Shown: positions 16,465-52,696 of the stretch, one piece after another
Layout: each line of letters starts with the position of its first letter
Numbering within the stretch: the first letter of the stretch is position 1
DNA from: Chryseobacterium sp. T16E-39
GTDB lineage: Bacteria > Bacteroidota > Bacteroidia > Flavobacteriales > Weeksellaceae
Reading direction: 5' to 3'
NCBI RefSeq assembly: GCF_002216065.1
Contig: NZ_CP022282.1
Span: 3,596,001-3,660,000, forward strand
DNA: 64,000 nt
Notes under the pieces: generated by a model
Seen by the model: only the letters and a program-made list of their open reading frames with translations
What the model was told of the DNA's origin: nothing
The model's database searches: none
Program-made: the position numbers and the translations under genes

Positions 16465-16890
16465 ATGAAAATGAAAAAACACATCGAAGATAAGCTCATA
16501 GATAAAAATACCAAGCCCACAAGTATGAGGATTCTGGTCTATGATTTTTTAAGCTCTCAGGAAGTGGCTTTGTCATTATCTGAGATCGAAGATTATTTTG
16601 AAAATGCGGACCGGACTACAATTTACAGGACCTTAAAAACCTTTGAAGAAAAAGGGATCGTTCACAGTATACAGGAAAATACGACCACCAAGTATAAACT
16701 TTGTGATGATGACTGTGATGAAAAAACACATAAAGACTGGCATCTGCATTTCTATTGTAAAATATGTAAACAGACGACATGCAGAGAGGATATATCTTTT
16801 CCTCAAGATGTTCAGGCTAATTTCAGGATCGATGAAATAAGACTTTTTGCAAAAGGCATTTGTGAAAGCTGTCTTGAAAGTTTGCAATAG
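16465..16890 (+). CDS. Fur-family transcriptional repressor, Zur-like, likely regulator of the metal island
   Basis: A 141-residue Fur-superfamily protein. The winged helix is at about residues 20-80 (ENADRTTIYRTLKTFEEKGI). The C-terminal part carries HLHFYCKIC (His93, His95, Cys98, Cys101) and CESC (Cys133, Cys136), the paired CxxC structural zinc site of the family. It is the last gene of the czc-type operon. Its stop codon lies inside a palindromic operator that precedes the P-type ATPase gene, and the same palindrome precedes czcA. I infer that it controls both units. A repressor that opens efflux genes would have to respond opposite to classical Zur, or respond to another metal, so its sensing mode is open. 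Confidence 0.88.
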   Translation: MKMKKHIEDKLIDKNTKPTSMRILVYDFLSSQEVALSLSEIEDYFENADRTTIYRTLKTFEEKGIVHSIQENTTTKYKLCDDDCDEKTHKDWHLHFYCKICKQTTCREDISFPQDVQANFRIDEIRLFAKGICESCLESLQ

Positions 16891-16918
16891 TATTGCACAT
16901 GTTTAAAAATTAATTTTG
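16882..16918 (+). promoter_or_regulatory. ATPase-gene promoter with palindromic operator identical in layout to that of czcA
   Basis: TTGCAATAGTATTGCAC (16882-16898) is a 7-3-7 palindrome with one mismatched end base. The -7 box TAATTTTG is at 16911-16918. Distances from palindrome to -7 box (12 bp) and from TTG (16893-16895) to -7 box (15 bp) equal those at the czcA promoter. The left arm overlaps the stop codon of the Fur-family gene. Confidence 0.72.
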
Positions 16919-16934
16919 TTGAAAATTATAAGTT

Positions 16935-19032: not shown

Positions 19033-19392
19033 TTGAAGTTTTTCATATCCATATTCATTATTTTTACCATAGCAATACGTCCTGTTTTGCCATTAGTGAA
19101 TTATGCGGTTAACTATGATTATATTGTTAAGAATCTTTGTGAAAACAGAAACAAGCCAGAGTCTACCTGTAAAGGTAAATGTTATGTAGCAAAAGAATTG
19201 GCTAAAACTGAAAAACAATCCAGCCCCCAAGTGATAAAGATTTCTGTGATAGATGTATTTCTTTCCAATGAAATCCTCTCTTTCTCACATAAAATAGGAG
19301 CTGATCATCTGCAAAAAGAAGCCAGTTCAGGCTCTATCAATTTTTGCACTTCAGAATATTTTTCCAGAATATTTCATCCTCCTTTAGGATAG
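19033..19392 (+). CDS. Small exported three-cysteine protein, paralogue of the gene at 21285
   Basis: A 119-residue protein started at TTG, because the hydrophobic leader begins directly there. After the N-terminal segment it has a conserved block (NYAVNYDYIVKNLCENR) and three cysteines at positions 36, 46 and 50 in the pattern C-x9-C-x3-C. The protein at 21285 has the same three positions without gaps. The remainder is variable and ends in a proline-containing tail (RIFHPPLG). A TATATTTG box at 19008-19015 may be its promoter. I do not recognise a named family. Its place next to YHS and SCO genes suggests a copper or thiol role in the periplasm, which is inference. Confidence 0.65.
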   Translation: MKFFISIFIIFTIAIRPVLPLVNYAVNYDYIVKNLCENRNKPESTCKGKCYVAKELAKTEKQSSPQVIKISVIDVFLSNEILSFSHKIGADHLQKEASSGSINFCTSEYFSRIFHPPLG

Positions 19393-19524
19393 TATAGTTA
19401 TCATTAAACTAATTTATTCGTTGAAATGTTAGGCGTATGGTCGTTTTAAAAACCATTCACGATGTAATTGGTATATAATTTATTTCTAAACTATTTTATT
19501 CATTATTAATTTCATTTCAATCTA

Positions 19525-19800
19525 ATGAAACATATATTCATTTTGACAGTATTGCTGTCGGTGTCCTTATTTTCCTGTGCCCAGGAAACTCCTAAGGTAA
19601 AACATAGTAAAAGTATGAGTACTCCTACAGAAAACCTTAAAAATGTAAAAGTGGTCAATGCTGAAGATCCGGTGTGCCATATGAAAACGGCAGACTATTT
19701 AAAGTTTACGTCAACTTATAAAAATAAGGTGTACGGTTTTTGCAGTGCTTCATGCAAGGACGAATTCAATAAAAACCCTGAAAAATATGTCCAAAAATAA
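19525..19800 (+). CDS. YHS-domain lipoprotein
   Basis: A 91-residue protein with a lipoprotein signal (LLSVSLFSCAQETP) and a C-terminal YHS domain at about residues 47-91. This has the characteristic DPVCHM start and the YGFCSASCKDEFNKNPEKYV end, with three cysteines. YHS domains bind metals and occur with copper transporters and heavy-metal ATPases. The gene overlaps the start of the SCO gene by 14 bp, so the two are translationally coupled. A periplasmic copper-binding or copper-transfer role beside SCO is a reasonable inference. Confidence 0.85.
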   Translation: MKHIFILTVLLSVSLFSCAQETPKVKHSKSMSTPTENLKNVKVVNAEDPVCHMKTADYLKFTSTYKNKVYGFCSASCKDEFNKNPEKYVQK

Positions 19801-20470
19801 AAAAACAACCCAAAGTTCAAAAAGTAAGATCATCATTCCTATTGCGGTTATTGCTATTATTTTTCTTGGAGTAGGTTTCGGAATGAGCTATTTTAAAAAA
19901 AGCTTTTATACAGTCATGAAAGTTCCCGATTTTGAACTTACTGATCAGAATAATAAAAAGATTACCAATAAGGATATGCTGGGGAAAGTATATCTCGTAG
20001 AGTTCTTTTTCAGTAAATGTCCCACCATTTGTCCGGTGATGAATAGCAATATGAAAGTGATCGAGGAAGAAATCAACGATCCTGAATTCGGGATTATTTC
20101 CATCAGTATCGACCCATTAAATGATACCCCCGAAACTCTGAAAAAGCACGCTGACAGAATTGGAGTAAAGTCTCCGAACTGGCATTTTTTAACGGGTGAC
20201 AGGACATATATTGGAAATCTTGCCGATCAGTTCAACATTTATGTAGGCGATAAAGAAGATGAAGGTGAAAGCCTCAATCACAGTGGGATGATTGCCCTGG
20301 TGGATCAGGAAGGAAATATCCGATGCAGATATAATAAAGACAACATGCCGATTTTATATTATTCCGGATTAAACTATAAAGATCCTGAAGGAAAGGAAAC
20401 GGAGCTTACCGGAAAATATCATCCGGATAGGGAAAGACTGATTGAGGATATTAAAAAGCTTTTAAAGTAG
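19787..20470 (+). CDS. SCO1/SenC-family copper chaperone or thiol reductase
   Basis: I start this 227-residue protein at the ATG at 19787, where a lysine-rich leader and one membrane anchor (IIIPIAVIAIIFLGVGFG) follow directly. The thioredoxin-like domain has the copper-site CxxxC (FFFSKCPTICPVM) and the distal conserved His in LNHSGMIAL. SCO proteins deliver copper to the CuA site of cytochrome oxidase or reduce its cysteines. The start overlaps the end of the YHS gene. Together with the MbnP/MbnH pair downstream this marks the region as copper-related. Confidence 0.9.
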   Translation: MSKNKKTTQSSKSKIIIPIAVIAIIFLGVGFGMSYFKKSFYTVMKVPDFELTDQNNKKITNKDMLGKVYLVEFFFSKCPTICPVMNSNMKVIEEEINDPEFGIISISIDPLNDTPETLKKHADRIGVKSPNWHFLTGDRTYIGNLADQFNIYVGDKEDEGESLNHSGMIALVDQEGNIRCRYNKDNMPILYYSGLNYKDPEGKETELTGKYHPDRERLIEDIKKLLK

Positions 20471-20606
20471 TTGAAAGTTGAAAGTTGGAAATTGAAATTG
20501 GAATGTTTCGGGAGTTATCTATTTGGCAGGCTTTATTAACTTCCTTCTTCCAGCATCGTGCTTCCTACTATAAAAAAATATTGTTAAACCATAAATACAA
20601 AACATT
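20471..20606. repeat. Low-complexity intergenic repeat
   Basis: The 136-bp spacer starts with short tandem units (TTGAAAG twice, then TTGGAAATTGAAATTGGAA). It then holds, on the minus strand, a purine-rich GCTGGAAGAAGGAAGTTA segment. A related GCTGGAAGCTGGAAGAGGGA segment occurs at about 57250. They look like members of a dispersed flavobacterial intergenic repeat. This is a visual judgement with no copy count. Confidence 0.35.
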
Positions 20607-21281
20607 ATGAAGATTATGAAAATCGCTGCCTTAAGTGCAGTTTTCGCGGCGCAATTTGCTTTTGCACAATTCAAGCAAACCCCTTTATCGTACGCATACA
20701 ATGCGTTGGAAGGTTCAATTGATGCGCAGACAATGGAAATTCATTATACAAAACATGCTGCCGGGTATGTAAGTAACCTGAATAAAGCTATTGCAGGAAC
20801 ACCTCAGGAGAAAGAAACTTTATTCCAGATCCTTTCTAAAGTTTCTACTTTAAGCCCTACCATCAGAAATAATGCAGGGGGGCACTTTAATCATGAGCTT
20901 TTCTGGACGATGCTTACTCCTGTGAAAAATACTCAGCCATCTGCTAAACTATTAAAAGCGATTACTGAAACTTTTGGAAGTTTAGATGCATTTAAAGAGA
21001 AAATGGGTAAAGCCGGAGCGGAGCGTTTTGGTTCCGGATGGGCTTGGCTGTCAGTTGATAAAAACGGAAAGTTATTTGTGTCTTCAACTCCTAACCAGGA
21101 CAATCCTTTAATGGATGTGGTAGAAGAGAAAGGAACTCCGATCTTGGGGATTGATGTTTGGGAGCATGCGTATTATTTAAAATATCAAAATAAGAGAGCT
21201 GATTATCTTACCGCTATCTGGAATGTATTAAACTGGAAAGAGGTAAGCAACAGATATGAAAATGCGATAAGCAAAAAATAA
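20607..21281 (+). CDS. sodA: Exported Fe/Mn superoxide dismutase, Mn-type signature
   Basis: A 224-residue SOD with an N-terminal signal peptide ([17 protein letters not shown]). The four metal ligands are in their usual contexts: His in [13 protein letters not shown], His in [11 protein letters not shown], and Asp and His in [10 protein letters not shown]. The residues NAGGHFNHE and TPNQDNPL match the Mn-type second-sphere pattern. It converts superoxide to peroxide and oxygen, here in the periplasm or outside. Either of two ATGs (20607, 20616) could start it. The three-cysteine gene at 21285 starts 3 bp after its stop, so they are cotranscribed. Confidence 0.9.
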
Positions 21282-21284
21282 AGT

Positions 21285-21653
21285 ATGAATTATATTTGCA
21301 GCATATTCCTAACCTTCTATATGGTGTTCAGACCTCTGATCCCCATCATGGAATATGCTGTAAATTATGATTATATCGTTGAAACTCTTTGTATCAATAA
21401 AGACAAGCCAGAACTTAATTGTAATGGTAAATGTTATTTGAGTAAAGAGCTTGCTAAAACCAACGATACAGAATCAACACCCCTATCCAAAGGGAAAAAT
21501 TCCGGACAGAAAATTCTTGATATTTACATTCTTCCGGATATCGCAGAGATAAAAAACACATGTCAACAATATAGCTCTAACTTTAATTTTATTTACCAAA
21601 AGAATTATTCTTTTCTTTTTCTAAAACCTATTTTCCGGCCTCCGGTTTTTTAA
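21285..21653 (+). CDS. Small exported three-cysteine protein, paralogue of the gene at 19033
   Basis: A 122-residue protein with a hydrophobic N-terminus and the same conserved block as the 19033 product (EYAVNYDYIVETLC). Cysteines 36, 46 and 50 are at identical positions and are followed by a shared SKELAKT motif. The C-terminal halves are unlike except for the final FRPPV/FHPPL tail. It follows the SOD gene by 3 bp. Two copies flank the YHS-SCO-SOD genes, so duplication within this cluster is likely. Function is unknown; a redox or copper role is inferred from context. Confidence 0.65.
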   Translation: MNYICSIFLTFYMVFRPLIPIMEYAVNYDYIVETLCINKDKPELNCNGKCYLSKELAKTNDTESTPLSKGKNSGQKILDIYILPDIAEIKNTCQQYSSNFNFIYQKNYSFLFLKPIFRPPVF

Positions 21654-35287: not shown

Positions 35288-36133
35288 TTATTTGAAATTT
35301 TTTTCTAGAAATGCGAATATTGTATCAAAATGTTTGGTAGGCTCAGCATGAGAACCTTCATAAATCTGATGCTCATAGGTATACTTAAATTGATGCTTTT
35401 TAAGTCGCTCAATAATTTTATTGCCCATTGGTACCGCTGGTATTATTTCATCTTTTGTGCCGGAAAGAAGAAGGATAGGACCTTGTATTAATTCTACTTT
35501 GATGGCTGCCTTTTGTTCAGCAAGGGTATCTTTCAGCATGGCACTAAACGCACTTCTAAGATCATGCTTTATTAAAAATGGAACGGATTCCTCGTTTACA
35601 GGAACGAAGGGTAGTTCTTTGTTGTCGAATGTCCAGCAGGAAGTGGTAAATTCCTGAGTATGGCCGGGAAAAACAACATGACTTGTAGACATCCCGATAA
35701 CACAGGAGATATCTGGATAATAACTTCCTAACAATAAAGCCAGATCTGCTCCCCTGGAACCTCCAATAACTGCAATTTTCTTCTTGTTGATTTTTTTATT
35801 TTTAGAAGCCACTACGATTGCATTATGAACATCATTAATGGATATCCGGTCTAATAAAGCAGGTGTATTTTTACACCCGAAATACCCAATTGCAAGAAAG
35901 CTATATCCCTTATCAAGAAATTCCTGCCTGGTCTTTTTCCAATGATCTGTTGTCCATGGATTTCCACCCTCTGAACCTCCTAATCCCACGATCAGGGGTT
36001 GGTTCTCGTTATTTCCGACGTATAGGACTGCTTCTACATTAGCTGCTTTTAAAGTATCCTGTGAAAATATAGAAATGCTACAAAAATGTAATAGTAAAAT
36101 TAGAAATGTCCAGGTTGTTTTATTAAAGTCCAT
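35288..36133 (-). CDS. Exported alpha/beta hydrolase, BAAT/acyl-CoA thioester hydrolase C-terminal type
   Basis: A 281-residue protein with a signal peptide (FLILLLHFCSISIFSQD). The nucleophile elbow is VIGGSRGADLALLLG, the acidic residue lies in LLLSGTKDEIIP and the His in IYEGSHAEPT, a complete Ser-Asp-His triad. The GLGGSEGG oxyanion region is typical of the bile-acid-CoA:amino-acid N-acyltransferase C-terminal family. Bacterial substrates are unknown; a periplasmic esterase or peptidase-like hydrolase is likely. It stands alone between two regulators. Confidence 0.8.
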   Translation of the reverse strand: MDFNKTTWTFLILLLHFCSISIFSQDTLKAANVEAVLYVGNNENQPLIVGLGGSEGGNPWTTDHWKKTRQEFLDKGYSFLAIGYFGCKNTPALLDRISINDVHNAIVVASKNKKINKKKIAVIGGSRGADLALLLGSYYPDISCVIGMSTSHVVFPGHTQEFTTSCWTFDNKELPFVPVNEESVPFLIKHDLRSAFSAMLKDTLAEQKAAIKVELIQGPILLLSGTKDEIIPAVPMGNKIIERLKKHQFKYTYEHQIYEGSHAEPTKHFDTIFAFLEKNFK

Positions 36134-36194
36134 GTTATTTTTTTTTCAAAGATGGGATTTAATAATCCGTAAACTTTTGACCTATATCAAAAAG

Positions 36195-36797
36195 TTATTT
36201 TTGGGTTCTGATCCTGCTTAGTGTTTCCTGTGTAATTCCTAAATAAGATGCTATCATTCCCAGAGGGATACGGTGATAGATCCCCTTATAGGTTTGGGTA
36301 AAATGATCATATTTTTCCTTAGCGGACGAAAAGCGCATGGAGGTGATCCGTTCCATAAGATGACCGACAACGGTTCCCATTGAAAGTCTTGAATATCTTT
36401 CCATTTCAGGAAAGTGGTCAAATAAATAAACCAGGTCGTTTACATGGATGCAGAAAGCTTCAGTGGCTTCTATAGCATCGATATAGTAAATGTCTTTTTG
36501 TCTTGTAAATAAACTTTTTGGAGAGTTGCACCATTCCCCTTCAACTGGGAAATATTCACTGATCTCTTTTCCGTCTTTTAGAAAGTAAGTTCTTAATAAG
36601 CCTTTCTGGATAAAATAAGATTGGGTACATACTTTGTCTGCATCATGGACGATGTCTCCTTTTTTAAAGGTAACAAAATACATTCTTTTGTCTAAGGCGG
36701 ATCTTAGTTCATCACTGATCTTGATATAGCTCTCAAAGTGATCAAACAATAAATCCTTTTGTATAGAATTCTGATTTTCTGGATCAAGATGTTCCAT
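36195..36797 (-). CDS. Crp/Fnr-family regulator with cyclic-nucleotide-binding fold
   Basis: A 200-residue protein with an N-terminal cNMP-like beta-roll (FVTFKKGDIVHDADKVCTQSYFIQKGLLRTYF) and a short C-terminal helix-turn-helix (IPLGMIASYLGITQETLSRIR). This reduced Crp type is common in Bacteroidota and often senses no nucleotide. Target and ligand are unknown. The hydrolase gene lies 61 bp downstream on the same strand and could be cotranscribed. Confidence 0.85.
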   Translation of the reverse strand: MEHLDPENQNSIQKDLLFDHFESYIKISDELRSALDKRMYFVTFKKGDIVHDADKVCTQSYFIQKGLLRTYFLKDGKEISEYFPVEGEWCNSPKSLFTRQKDIYYIDAIEATEAFCIHVNDLVYLFDHFPEMERYSRLSMGTVVGHLMERITSMRFSSAKEKYDHFTQTYKGIYHRIPLGMIASYLGITQETLSRIRTQK

Positions 36798-37129: not shown

Positions 37130-37510
37130 ATGCCATTTATTACAATTACTTCCCTGAAAGGAAGATCAAAAGAAGAAAAACAAAAGATAGGTGAAGCTAT
37201 ACATGCAGCGATAGTAGAATCAGGGGTGCCCCCTGCAGATCGCTTTCAGAGATTTCTGGATCTAGAACCTGAAAACTTCCTTTATGACAAACATTATCCA
37301 AATCTTGAAAAAGGACGTTCAGAGAACTTTGTCGTTATTGAGATTCTGCTTTCTGTTGGTCGAAGCGTTAAAGTGAAGCGTAAAATTCTCGAAAGTTTAA
37401 TAGCTAAATTAAGAGACCTGTCTTTCGATCCCGAGGATGTATTTGTTTCTTTCCAGGAAACAGCTTGGGAAAACTGGTCCTTTGCAAATGGAGAAATATT
37501 ACATGCCTAA
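37130..37510 (+). CDS. Tautomerase-superfamily protein (4-oxalocrotonate tautomerase/MIF-like)
   Basis: A 126-residue protein starting MPFITI, with the catalytic Pro at position 2 (Pro1 after Met removal). The GRSKEEKQKIGEAIHAAIVE helix and the RFLDLEPENF strand are typical of the longer tautomerase-family proteins of about 125-130 residues. It probably catalyses keto-enol tautomerisation of an unknown substrate. Its last 42 codons, stop codon and terminator are duplicated about 2.9 kb downstream, bracketing a cassette. Confidence 0.85.
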   Translation: MPFITITSLKGRSKEEKQKIGEAIHAAIVESGVPPADRFQRFLDLEPENFLYDKHYPNLEKGRSENFVVIEILLSVGRSVKVKRKILESLIAKLRDLSFDPEDVFVSFQETAWENWSFANGEILHA

Positions 37511-37618
37511 GACAGAGGACTTTTTAAAAAAGAAAATCTGTTTTTCTTTGGAGCATGTATTAATAAAAAAAGCTGCAAACATTGTTTGCAGCTTTTTTAG
37601 ACTTTGATATTTAAGCTT
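37385..37618 (+). repeat. Left copy of a direct repeat: tautomerase 3' end plus terminator
   Basis: This 234-bp stretch aligns with 40308-40539. It covers the last 42 codons of the tautomerase gene, the terminator hairpin and about 20 bp beyond. Over the 126 coding bases there are five differences, all transitions and all synonymous. The noncoding part has more changes and three 1-bp gaps. Confidence 0.93.
37567..37597 (+). terminator. Terminator of the tautomerase gene
   Basis: A perfect 14-bp stem (37567-37580 with 37584-37597) with a 3-base loop, bounded by A and T runs. It is duplicated at 40489. Confidence 0.88.
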
Positions 37619-37676
37619 TAGTACAGATCCAACATATATAAATCAAAAAAATAGATCATTTTGAGAAAGAGTACAG

Positions 37677-37850
37677 GTGCTGGACAGTGTATATTTTGGT
37701 TTTGATCTTTTATTTACTGTTGATTTCTTTTCAGATGATTTCAAGTTTAATAAGGGCACGAAAGTATCAACAAAAAGCAATGTGTTTATCCATGATCAAT
37801 CAAAGAAGCTTGTTGTCTTGAAGTTTGAAAGGACAAGACAGATCGAATAA
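37677..37850 (+). pseudogene. Possible gene remnant, 57 codons
   Basis: A GTG-to-TAA frame of 57 residues (LDSVYFGFDLLFTVDFFSDD ... KLVVLKFERTRQIE) has amino-acid composition of a folded domain but no signal, no promoter and no recognisable family. It lies just inside the left repeat. It may be the tail of a gene lost when the cassette was inserted. Confidence is low. Confidence 0.3.
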
Positions 37851-37986
37851 AAATATTCCGCCAAGTTTTGTTGCTTTGTCAGGGTACATTTACTCATAAA
37901 AAAGTTGATTCAAAACAATACGGAAAACCCTAAAGGGTGAATTAAAAAATATTTTTATATTAGCTAAGTAAAAACACAAACAATCA

Positions 37987-39317
37987 ATGAAGAAAAATTT
38001 AATTATTCGACTGGTGCTTTCGATAGCACTGGTTACCTGTATGGGCTCCTGTAGCTCTGAGGAAGACCTCCTCATCAGGAAAGAAGAAAAGTATTCAAAA
38101 AATTTCAGGTATTTACTTCTAAAAAAGAGGAAGCTGTTAACTATGGGAATGGCTTTAAAACTTTATTAGAGCGTTATGATGAAATCAAGAATGTTCAACA
38201 CACTTTAAAATCAATTAAAAAAGCTTGGAAAAATTCATCAAAAATAGCTGATGAATTTGTAGAATTTAATATTCGGTCTCAGGATATAACAACGAAAAAT
38301 AAAGAAAAGTATACTCTTTTCCCTCTAATCAAAAATTATACTGTAGAAGGAGTAATTATCGCTGTTTTAAAAGAGAATGATACGCAGGTAGAATTTCTAA
38401 AAATGTCTTCTGATGCTGACAATTATAATGAAATATTAGGATTATTCCGGGCTCAATACTTAAAAAGCAATTTAAAAAATAAAAATTTAAATAAAGGAGC
38501 TGGAGGACCATGTGGTTTTGATGGTGCCCCTCCATGTGATATAGAAACTGTAGTTATTACCATCGGAGGAGGGGGTGGCGGAGGTTCTTTACCTCCAGGA
38601 GGCGGCTGGGTTCCGCCAGGAGGATGTGGACCTTATGAAGATTGCCTACATAATCCTGACGCGGGAGGAACTGCTGGAAGTGGGGATAATCCTAATAATA
38701 ACCCCAACATAAATCCTTGTGATAAAACAAAAAGTAACTTAGAAAACCCTAATATAAAGGCGAAAATTACTGAACTGAAAGCACAATCAACACAGGGAGG
38801 AGAAAAAGGTGTGATGTTTAAAGCAGATGGTACTCCTTCAGCAACAATACCAGGTGGTGACCATAATGTGGGTTTTGGTGATAAGACAGGATATCAGGGA
38901 GGTTATCATAATCATACCCCTTCAGGGATACCAATGCTTTCTCCTCCAGATATAGAACAGCTTTTACAATTTGCACTAGCACAGGGAAATGGAAACCCTA
39001 CAAATGCAAGTAATGCTTACCTAGGAATGGTAGCTCCAAATGGCATGCATTATGTAATATTATTCAATGGAACTTATAATGATGCATTAGTAACTTTTTC
39101 GCAACAAGATTTAGATGACCATGTAACTAGGTACCAAACTAGGTATGGTATGTTCAAACCATCAACTCCTGAAGGGTATGAAAAGTTATTTTTCAAATCT
39201 CTTAATGACATGGGGCTAAATGGAAAAGTAACCCTACAAAGAATAGAAAGTGATGGAACAATAAAAACAGTAACTAAAAATGATAATGGTACGACAACAG
39301 CTATACCATGTCTATAA
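37987..39317 (+). pseudogene. Lipoprotein with RadC/JAB-like peptidase motif, split by a -1 frameshift in an A6 run
   Basis: An ATG at 37987 opens a lipoprotein signal (VLSIALVTCMGSCSSEEDL). The frame fails after the A6 run at 38097-38102; adding one A restores a single 443-residue protein through to 39317 without internal stops. The middle part is Lys-rich and helical (about 40-150). A Gly/Pro-rich linker follows (GGGGGGSLPPGGGWVPPGG, about 195-215). The C-terminal domain carries Glu273 and HNHTPSGIPMLSPPD (His308, His310, Ser319, Asp322). That resembles the JAB/MPN zinc site of RadC-like proteins, with x8 instead of x7 between HxH and S. A lipid-anchored peptidase or effector is inferred. 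A DUF6705 gene follows 21 bp later, and the pair sits between long direct repeats. Confidence 0.75.
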
Positions 39318-39338
39318 TCTTTAAATTAAATCGAAAAA

Positions 39339-39905
39339 ATGAAAATTATATTATTCTTAACAGTATTCCTTTTCTCAAGTTCATGCTATTCACAACAAGT
39401 TTATCCATTGAATACAGATTTTGATGAAGTCCCTCAGAATTCCTATTTAAAGGATTCCAATAATGAATTAACTCCTTATATAGGAACCTATAAATCTTCT
39501 TTTCAAAATAGGGAAATCACAATCTATATTACAAAAGAAGTACAAAAGTTTTTTAAAGCCTTAAGGGTTTATCAAGACGCGTTGTCAATAAGATATGTTG
39601 TGAAAAATTCAGCAGGAGCTATTCTTCAAGACACACAAAGCATGACTTTTCAACCAAATCAATTTGAACATACTATTTACAGTCATGGGACTTATCCTAA
39701 TCAGAATATTGTATGGTTCAATTATGGGGGAACAAATTGCAGAGTTGGTTGGGGAGCTATTGAATTAAAAAAGATTAGTACTACTCAGCTATCATGGGAA
39801 TACAGACCTAATGACATCATACTTGACAGCAGTAAGTGCCCTCAAGGAACAGACATAAATATCTACTTGCCTGAAACAAAAGGTTTGATATTTACTAAAC
39901 AATAA
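39339..39905 (+). CDS. DUF6705-type exported protein
   Basis: A 188-residue protein with a signal peptide (ILFLTVFLFSSSCYSQQ). The start of the mature part (QVYPLNTDFDEVPQNSYLKD, then NNELTPYIGTYKSSF) is what I know as DUF6705 in Chryseobacterium-like genomes. The rest is beta-rich with two cysteines (TNCRVGW, DSSKCPQ), possibly a disulfide. Function is unknown. It follows the JAB-like lipoprotein in the same orientation and ends at a terminator, so an accessory or protective role for that protein is possible but unproven. Confidence 0.7.
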   Translation: MKIILFLTVFLFSSSCYSQQVYPLNTDFDEVPQNSYLKDSNNELTPYIGTYKSSFQNREITIYITKEVQKFFKALRVYQDALSIRYVVKNSAGAILQDTQSMTFQPNQFEHTIYSHGTYPNQNIVWFNYGGTNCRVGWGAIELKKISTTQLSWEYRPNDIILDSSKCPQGTDINIYLPETKGLIFTKQ

Positions 39906-39930
39906 AATCAACAAATTATAATTATAAATC

Positions 39931-39956
39931 AACCTTTATCAATTTTGGTAAAGGTT
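39931..39956 (+). terminator. Terminator after the DUF6705-type gene
   Basis: An 8-bp stem (39931-39938 with 39949-39956) with a 10-base loop, followed by a T-run. Confidence 0.75.
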
Positions 39957-40307
39957 TTTTTGTTGTAGCCTTATACAAAGAGTCTACCCATGAAAGAAAG
40001 ACTTAAAGAACGTAAGTGATGAAAAATTCTTTCTTCTTTTCAAATATATTCACAGATTAAGATGTTACAAGGGTTTCAAAAAAAGGAATATTTGAGTGCA
40101 ATTCTACTTCAAAATTTCAAGACAATTTTTAATCGAACAATTCCAAGACAAAACAGACAAATGCTTAGGTAATCCGAATTTATGATTACAGGAATTAATT
40201 CTATTATATTTGGTGGAATTCATTAAGAATTGGCTTAAGCAATGAAATGAATGATTTATCATTACTAACAATATAGATGTTCAGATGTTGCAATAAATAT
40301 AAATGAA
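39957..40307. other. Gene-free segment between the cassette and the right repeat
   Basis: About 350 bp with no convincing gene. One plus-strand frame near 40070-40172 reads as a short helical peptide ending in stops but lacks a start and a family. It may be degraded sequence left by recombination. Confidence 0.45.
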
Positions 40308-40433
40308 ATTCTTGAAAGTTTAATAGCTAAATTAAGAGACTTGTCTTTCGATCCTGAGGATGTATTTGTTTCTTTCCAGGAAACAGCCTGGGAAAACTGG
40401 TCCTTTGCAAATGGGGAAATATTACATGCCTAA
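40308..40433 (+). pseudogene. 3' fragment of a tautomerase gene
   Basis: These 42 codons encode the same C-terminus as the complete tautomerase upstream (residues from ILESLIAKLRDLSFDPEDV to the stop). All five base changes are synonymous. There is no start or promoter, so it is not expressed as a protein. The silent changes show that the copy evolved under protein-level selection before it became a fragment. Confidence 0.85.
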
Positions 40434-40488
40434 GACAGAGGACTTCTTAAGAAGAAAATCTGTTTTTCTTTGGAGCATATATTAATAA

Positions 40489-40517
40489 AAAAGCTGCAAA
40501 CATTGTTTGCAGCTTTT
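40489..40517. terminator. Duplicated terminator hairpin beside the tRNA-Glu genes
   Basis: A perfect 13-bp stem (40489-40501 with 40505-40517) and a 3-base loop with A-rich and T-rich flanks. It lies downstream of the leftward rpsT-tRNA unit and can serve it as well as the repeat on the plus strand. Confidence 0.8.
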
Positions 40518-40542
40518 GTAAGCTCTGATCTTTAAGCTTCCG

Positions 40543-40614
40543 TAGCCCGTAGGGGAATCGAACCCCTCTTACCAGAATGAAAATCTGAGGTCCTAACCGA
40601 TAGACGAACGGGCC
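40543..40614 (-). tRNA. tRNA-Glu (anticodon TTC)
   Basis: A 72-base cloverleaf on the minus strand. The acceptor arm is GGCCCGT with ACGGGCT, the T-loop is GGTTCGATTCC, and the anticodon stem CAGA/TCTG carries a TTTTCAT loop with TTC. CCA is not encoded. It is identical over 72 bases to the copy at 40684. Confidence 0.95.
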
Positions 40615-40683
40615 ATCTACGCATACACTAATTTGACTCAGTGCGTTAGGTTTTTGTTTTTATAAGTTTACAACTCTTATTAG

Positions 40684-52354: not shown

Positions 52355-52696
52355 ATGAAAAAGTCATTATTCGTAGCTGCTATCGCTGCAATCTCTCTAG
52401 TTGCTTGTAAAAAAACTGAAGCTACTTCTACTGAAGGTACTGCTGATTCTGCTGCTGTTGCTGCTACTGATTCTGCTGCTGTTGTAGCTGATTCTGCTGC
52501 TCAAGTTGTTGATTCTGCTGCTACTGCTACTGTAGATGCTGCTAAAGGTGCTGCTGCTGCAACTACTACTGCTGCTGCTGACGCTGCTAAAGGTGCTGCT
52601 GCTGGAGCTGCTGATGCTGCTAAAGGAGCTGCTGATGCTGCTAAAGATGCAACTAAAGAAGCTGCTAAAGAAGTTAAAGACGCTGCTAAAAAATAA
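52355..52696 (+). CDS. Alanine-rich lipoprotein, LEA-like amphipathic repeats
   Basis: A 113-residue protein with a lipoprotein signal (FVAAIAAISLVACKKTEA). Ala, Asp, Lys and Thr/Ser repeats follow, such as AADAAKGAA, ADAAKDATKEAAKE. Almost all Ala codons are GCT, so the DNA is a near-tandem GCT repeat. The repeats predict long amphipathic helices like LEA or Lpp-type proteins; a structural envelope or desiccation role is inferred. It has its own promoter box and terminator. Confidence 0.8.
   Translation: MKKSLFVAAIAAISLVACKKTEATSTEGTADSAAVAATDSAAVVADSAAQVVDSAATATVDAAKGAAAATTTAAADAAKGAAAGAADAAKGAADAAKDATKEAAKEVKDAAKK

Follow-up and report, generated by a model that had tools for sequence, protein, structure and literature searches.

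In the 64,000-nt stretch of Chryseobacterium sp. T16E-39 DNA analyzed here (the window), a small gene cassette lies beside a tRNA-Glu gene, bracketed by two copies of the 3′ end and terminator of a tautomerase gene. Comparison across the genus revealed that this cassette looks like the decayed remnant of a small tRNA-Glu integrative element carrying a surface-protein gene pair, given that its p114 relic, frameshifted lipoprotein gene and DUF6705 gene stand in the order of an att-bounded element form found in genome G103. The 236-bp repeats are not the att sites of that element. The scar is, on balance, best explained by recombination of an element-bearing with an element-free chromosome, with a homologous exchange within or ahead of the tautomerase gene and a non-homologous one at codon 85; we regard this account as probable, though well short of secure. 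The features are listed in Table 1.

Table 1. Features of the tautomerase to tRNA-Glu interval, in window positions.
Feature	Position	Strand	Remark
Tautomerase gene, intact, 126 aa	37130..37510	+	Pfam Tautomerase_2, E 1.9e-24
Repeat copy 1: tautomerase 3′ end, terminator, trailer with five derived-looking changes	37383..37618	+	
p114 relic (small lipoprotein-like element gene), from about codon 38, inner stop, 5′ part missing	37622..37847	+	
Lipoprotein gene, JAMM-like C-terminal domain, frameshifted near start	37987..39317	+	
DUF6705 secreted-looking protein gene, open	39339..39905	+	Pfam PF20448, E 1e-9
Unassigned 277 bp up to the non-homologous joint, perhaps what erosion left of the insert's right end	40029..40305	.	
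Repeat copy 2: tautomerase 3′ fragment from codon 85, terminator, native tRNA trailer	40306..40541	+	
tRNA-Glu (TTC)	40542..40614	-	Its 3′ end serves the elements of G075, G110 and G103 as att site

The direct repeat and the tautomerase gene

The repeat noted in the preliminary description was recovered as the top-scoring same-strand repeat of the whole 64-kb window, pairing 37383-37618 with 40306-40539 at 93.6% identity over 236 columns (E 8e-97). Homology of copy 2 to the tautomerase begins abruptly inside the gene, at 40304-40306, while the left-hand gene is complete, and two more tRNA-Glu genes follow at 40683 and 41421. The copies differ at five coding sites, in codons 87, 97, 101, 112 and 121; all five differences are transitions and, as had been described, all are synonymous. 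With one third of the possible transitions in the coding stretch of the repeat being synonymous, the chance of this outcome is about 0.004, a pattern that supports the earlier proposal that both 3′ ends served working genes until one was reduced to a fragment. Weaker direct repeats were also observed elsewhere in the window, at 52421-52650 and 19102-21460 (72% over 134 nt and 75% over 107 nt, respectively).

Matches to the tautomerase were identified in 19 of the 173 genus genomes (own included), with close relatives (88–89%) in C. paridis (G080) and C. polytrichastri (G087) and distant ones (25–31%) in 16 others. None of the 173 genomes carries two full copies of the window-type tautomerase; G074 has two distant ones (29–30%). 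Copy 2 DNA was matched somewhere in 23 of the 173 genomes, again with the own genome included, and among the matches listed those longer than 100 nt fell in the own genome (two places), G080 and G087 only, the rest being terminator-sized. Both repeat copies together were seen in none of the 172 other genus genomes searched.

The empty site and the variable tRNA-Glu interval

The expectation that related strains would include one with a single repeat copy and no cassette, and others with different inserts, was borne out when the tautomerase to tRNA-Glu interval was compared across the genus. C. paridis (L006) provides the empty site, in the order MFS, GntR, tautomerase, terminator, tRNA-Glu and rpsT, with 81 nt from the stop codon to the tRNA, and in C. 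polytrichastri (L005) the tautomerase lies in a different gene neighborhood. GntR is found about 90–100 bp from tRNA-Glu in G090 and G091. G078 and G077 have the window's hydrolase and Crp-like genes and then a 402-aa gene replacing the tautomerase, and G085 displays a two-gene insert between the terminator and tRNA-Glu 1 (L163, G085:C1, ~2803.5-2808.0 kb), which we take to resemble an IstA/IstB pair of the IS21 type. Our locus survey covered 55 loci with rpsT, namely the closest anchors, a few others and six picked for holding p114. GntR is present in 26 of these loci, and its distance to the tRNA is 52–212 bp in 11 of them and 619–9,637 bp in the other 15. Since inserts and interval lengths differ across the surveyed genomes, the place between GntR and tRNA-Glu is variable; seven of the 15 long intervals hold the same gene pair, which may reflect inheritance of one clade.

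Three further observations concern this neighborhood. The hydrolase-like and Crp-like genes (window 35288-36797) lie between GntR and the tautomerase in the window, follow GntR in G077 and G078, and are absent in C. paridis. Locus L206 (G072) has a multi-gene insert at the tRNA-Glu locus, from -6504 to -928 relative to rpsT, that encodes 722-aa and 546-aa proteins. In G077 (L164, L165, G077:C22), some 110 kb separate two of the tRNA-Glu genes, and a tyrosine recombinase of 405 aa is encoded close to one end, in the manner of an ICE-like insertion.

A family of small elements at tRNA-Glu

Comparison of the tRNA-Glu loci revealed a family of elements that shares a gene set (integrase, Xis, Rep, p414, p114 and cargo), a target (the tRNA-Glu cluster) and a 16-bp tRNA-end repeat; copies of this repeat, which corresponds to the tRNA-Glu 3′ end, flank the elements in L168, L171 and L221. 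The G075 element is 6,967 bp long, bounded by copies of this repeat, and encodes, in order, a tyrosine recombinase, an AlpA/HTH Xis, a G2P-like Rep, p414, p114 and a cargo pair (L168:2723-4446) matching the PADLOC models PDC-M19A and PDC-M19B. In its relative in G110 (8,167 bp) the integrase frame is interrupted and the cargo gene is Lit-like (L221:12126-13094, E 3e-21). The PDC-M19A/B and Lit matches make the cargo slot of these larger elements a candidate location of phage defence genes. The G103 form, of 3,028 bp, is bounded by exact att copies of the same repeat, is without integrase and contains only p114, lipoprotein and DUF6705, in that order; surface-protein pairs are just one of several cargo types. 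Related gene sets in G169, G122 and G117 lie across rpsT, on the side where the window has tRNA-Glu 3. The p414 gene was detected in 6 of the 320 family genomes. Matches to p114 lie in 9 of the 173 genus genomes, all nine times within 12 kb of rpsT and beside the tRNA-Glu cluster (eight positions from the locus survey, the ninth from window coordinates). A description of this int-xis-rep-p414-p114 family was not found in the literature searched.

The tRNA site itself is known. As two reports describe, tRNA-Glu-TTC is a published ICE site in Chryseobacterium and Elizabethkingia (ICECspPOL2 and type II ICECleSHZ29-like elements), with the core sequence found here (PMC8694125, PMC12561888). The preliminary description had proposed an uncharacterised hot spot for surface-protein cassettes; the hot spot is real, but it is already on record as this ICE site and accepts several cargoes. 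ICECspPOL2 is a 116-kb element with conjugation genes, whereas the elements described here span 3–8 kb and encode an integrase, Xis and G2P-like Rep with no conjugation gene among the scanned proteins, and the window copy has lost even integrase, Xis and Rep.

The apparent element remnant in the window

The p114 relic directly abuts the trailer of copy 1. Its codons 47-113 align at 58% (E 1.7e-18), with the DNA aligned to L168 and L171. The p114 relic, the lipoprotein gene, the DUF6705 gene and the tRNA side follow each other in the order and orientation of G103, and the spacer between p114 and the lipoprotein gene matches that of G103; unlike in G103, the tautomerase fragment intervenes before the tRNA. 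Among the ORFs of the cassette and by Pfam, we found no tyrosine recombinase or Xis gene and no replication or mobility gene; conjugation genes were likewise absent among the ORFs and, for the proteins, by Pfam. Three distant integrase matches lie elsewhere in the own genome, the best at 36%. The 16-bp att core does not occur in 37501-40541, where the best match has 5 mismatches. The 277-bp right end gave short or weak matches only, in the 173 genomes and the compared loci, and the lack of a clear match to the right ends of G103 and G075 is the main gap in our account.

Within the right end, a 60-bp stretch (window 40074-40129) resembles, in inverted orientation, the 3′ end of gene 16465-16890 (75%, at 16865-16924). 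We take this gene to be Fur-like. A 33-bp part of the right-end stretch has 88% matches in several genus genomes.

The lipoprotein and DUF6705 genes

The part of the lipoprotein previously described as JAB-like is not recognized by Pfam, but across 20 aligned sequences its E, H, HxH and D residues never vary and its S hardly does. The gene is broken: the start (37987) is out of frame with the main part, a defect that paralogues at other places in the genome do not share, their frames being open from end to end. The DUF6705 assignment of the neighboring protein was upheld by Pfam. The lipoprotein gene is a mosaic. On its 5′ side, 100-bp windows from 37976 to 38675 are 93–100% identical to the own paralogue (L159, G000:C1, ~3045 kb) and 56–83% to the G078 gene, whereas windows from 38951 on are 94–99% identical to the G078 homologue, and from 39026 through DUF6705 the identity is 94–100% to the G078 pair and 55–89% to the own paralogue. 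The DUF6705 gene is 98.9% identical in nucleotides to the G078 copy, which lies at another locus, compared with 78.9% for the hydrolase-Crp stretch. Because the L159 and G078 loci agree in one downstream gene and in the gene upstream (98.6% over the 73 residues compared), exchange between homologous loci and lineages would be the simple reading of this mosaic.

Both families are widespread, with relatives of DUF6705 in 133 and of the lipoprotein in 107 of the 173 genus genomes. In 39 neighboring lipoprotein/DUF6705 pairs, a biased sample in that it was drawn from best-hit loci, the identity of the partner tracks that of the JAMM-like core (rho 0.57) and of the tail (rho 0.46; Mantel p 0.001 each) but not that of the lipoprotein head (rho -0.08, Mantel p 0.88); removal of near-duplicates leaves 31 pairs, with rho at 0.57, 0.45 and -0.11 for core, tail and head. 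Moreover, for 29 of the 34 adjacent DUF6705 pairs, both members are nearer to a copy at another locus than to each other, among the loci compared and with the own genome included. The co-variation of the tail and the acquired-looking tandem DUF6705 copies support, but do not show, a putative effector/immunity role. One tentative possibility is that the pairs form an undescribed interbacterial competition system of Chryseobacterium, in which a swappable JAMM-like metalloprotease tail on a surface lipoprotein would be matched by a secreted DUF6705 immunity protein, and which would have spread partly as cargo of the small tRNA-Glu elements, in a slot otherwise filled with candidate phage-defence genes. 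Under this reading, the window's broken effector gene and open partner would be as expected of an orphan immunity gene. A description of the lipoprotein/DUF6705 pair was not found in the literature searched.

Origin of the scar

Differences between the repeat copies were polarized with C. paridis, C. polytrichastri and G078 as outgroups, of which two or three were usable, at few sites. Among the coding differences, three are derived in copy 2, one in copy 1, and one is unpolarised; the three in copy 2 are all synonymous (about 0.04 by chance). Past the hairpin, in the trailer, five changes in copy 1 look derived (G078 has a third base at two of these) and none in copy 2, whose last 28 nt before the tRNA agree with C. 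paridis at all 28 positions. The stretch from stop codon to hairpin has five further differences, of which only an A-run indel could be polarized, derived-looking in copy 2. The split of derived changes between coding part and trailer yields a Fisher p of 0.048, for a partition chosen after seeing the data. Judged from these comparisons, the trailer of copy 2 is the native one and stayed on the tRNA. Copy 1 had apparently been separated from the tRNA well before the repeat formed, because derived changes in its trailer would be expected with an element in between, and the gene end of copy 2 was probably in use until lately, since its coding changes are all synonymous. Two chromosomes, one element-bearing and one element-free, would fit this pattern better than one chromosome duplicating a piece, and the substitutions, in the one strain of the species compared, are compatible with incoming DNA from another lineage.

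We therefore favor the following course for the two-chromosome exchange. In one lineage, the element would have been lodged between the terminator of the tautomerase gene and the tRNA. Comparison with G075, G110 and G103 suggests that it shed the integrase half, the beginning of p114 and the att sites, while its cargo pair appears to have swapped segments with homologous pairs elsewhere. A stretch of this chromosome would then have entered a related element-free chromosome having tautomerase, terminator and tRNA-Glu, through one crossover in or before the tautomerase gene and one non-homologous joint at codon 85. The outcome would be an intact gene followed by the cassette and by a 3′ fragment that remained on the tRNA. 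This course is preferred because C. paridis has the empty site, because G075 and G110 have elements with the 16-bp att at the same tRNA and G103 has the window's order, because every p114 genome has that gene near the rpsT/tRNA-Glu cluster, and because the spacer matches G103 and the two copies diverged as just described. Counting against it are the missing att core, the p114 relic as the sole element gene left, and a lipoprotein 5′ half that came from, or went to, another locus. The model is built on one strain of the species, from which we infer the parent chromosomes.

An identical final anatomy could arise in a single lineage if an illegitimate sister-chromosome exchange first duplicated everything between codon 85 and the far end of the element. 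Precise excision of the second element copy, for which the family has its own integrase, would then leave the fragment, the terminator and the tRNA. Copy 2 would then have been dead from the outset, yet its three polarized coding changes are all synonymous, and we consider this route unlikely. Lower still we place circularization of the donor segment followed by a single (Campbell) crossover into the tautomerase 3′ end: it should predict the same gene order, but demands an extra circularization step of a cassette in which no replication or mobility gene was found. Duplication of the whole tautomerase in tandem, with both copies used until an insertion or deletion truncated one, would agree with the purely synonymous coding differences; it is very improbable, however, as no genome of the 173 holds two full window-type copies and it leaves the p114 relic and the changed copy 1 trailer unexplained.

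Many integrating elements target gene 3′ ends and restore them, and the 236-bp repeats might on that ground be taken for att sites of an element targeting the tautomerase 3′ end. This is barely credible, given that the cassette has no detected integrase, that the L168 integrase is unmatched in the C. paridis and C. polytrichastri loci around the tautomerase, that 236 bp far exceeds the 16-bp repeat of elements at the same place, and that the window-type tautomerase occurs in only 3 of 173 genomes. Of the earlier proposal that a foreign segment arrived with its own copy of the gene end, partly homologous recombination survives as the best reading, whereas the idea of the repeats as ends of a mobile unit is not supported. 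The mobile unit would be an older element that targeted tRNA-Glu and has lost its att sites at this locus.

Relation to known systems and implications

The kinds of event involved, a small integrative element and a one-sided homologous insertion, are already known. The scar shows the pattern of homology-facilitated illegitimate recombination, with homology at one end and abrupt loss at the other, and differs from that process (PMC3240628) in being inferred from a genome scar rather than observed. A similar arrangement, with one homologous anchor, one illegitimate joint and the 3′ end of the older gene left behind, has been proposed for effector displacement in Vibrio cholerae, where the tandem partner genes of immunity arrays also look acquired rather than duplicated, as for DUF6705 here; there, the anchor belongs to the effector module of a known secretion system, whereas here it is an unrelated tautomerase and the role of the cargo is putative (PMC5361080).

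Our analysis indicates that a site-specific element followed by plain recombination can produce a scar easily mistaken for att repeats, which makes direct repeats by themselves a treacherous basis for calling mobile elements. It also draws attention to a family of small integrative elements whose cargo slot lies at a tRNA site that resistance ICEs are known to use, and to a widespread protein pair of putative function, the lipoprotein and its DUF6705 partner.
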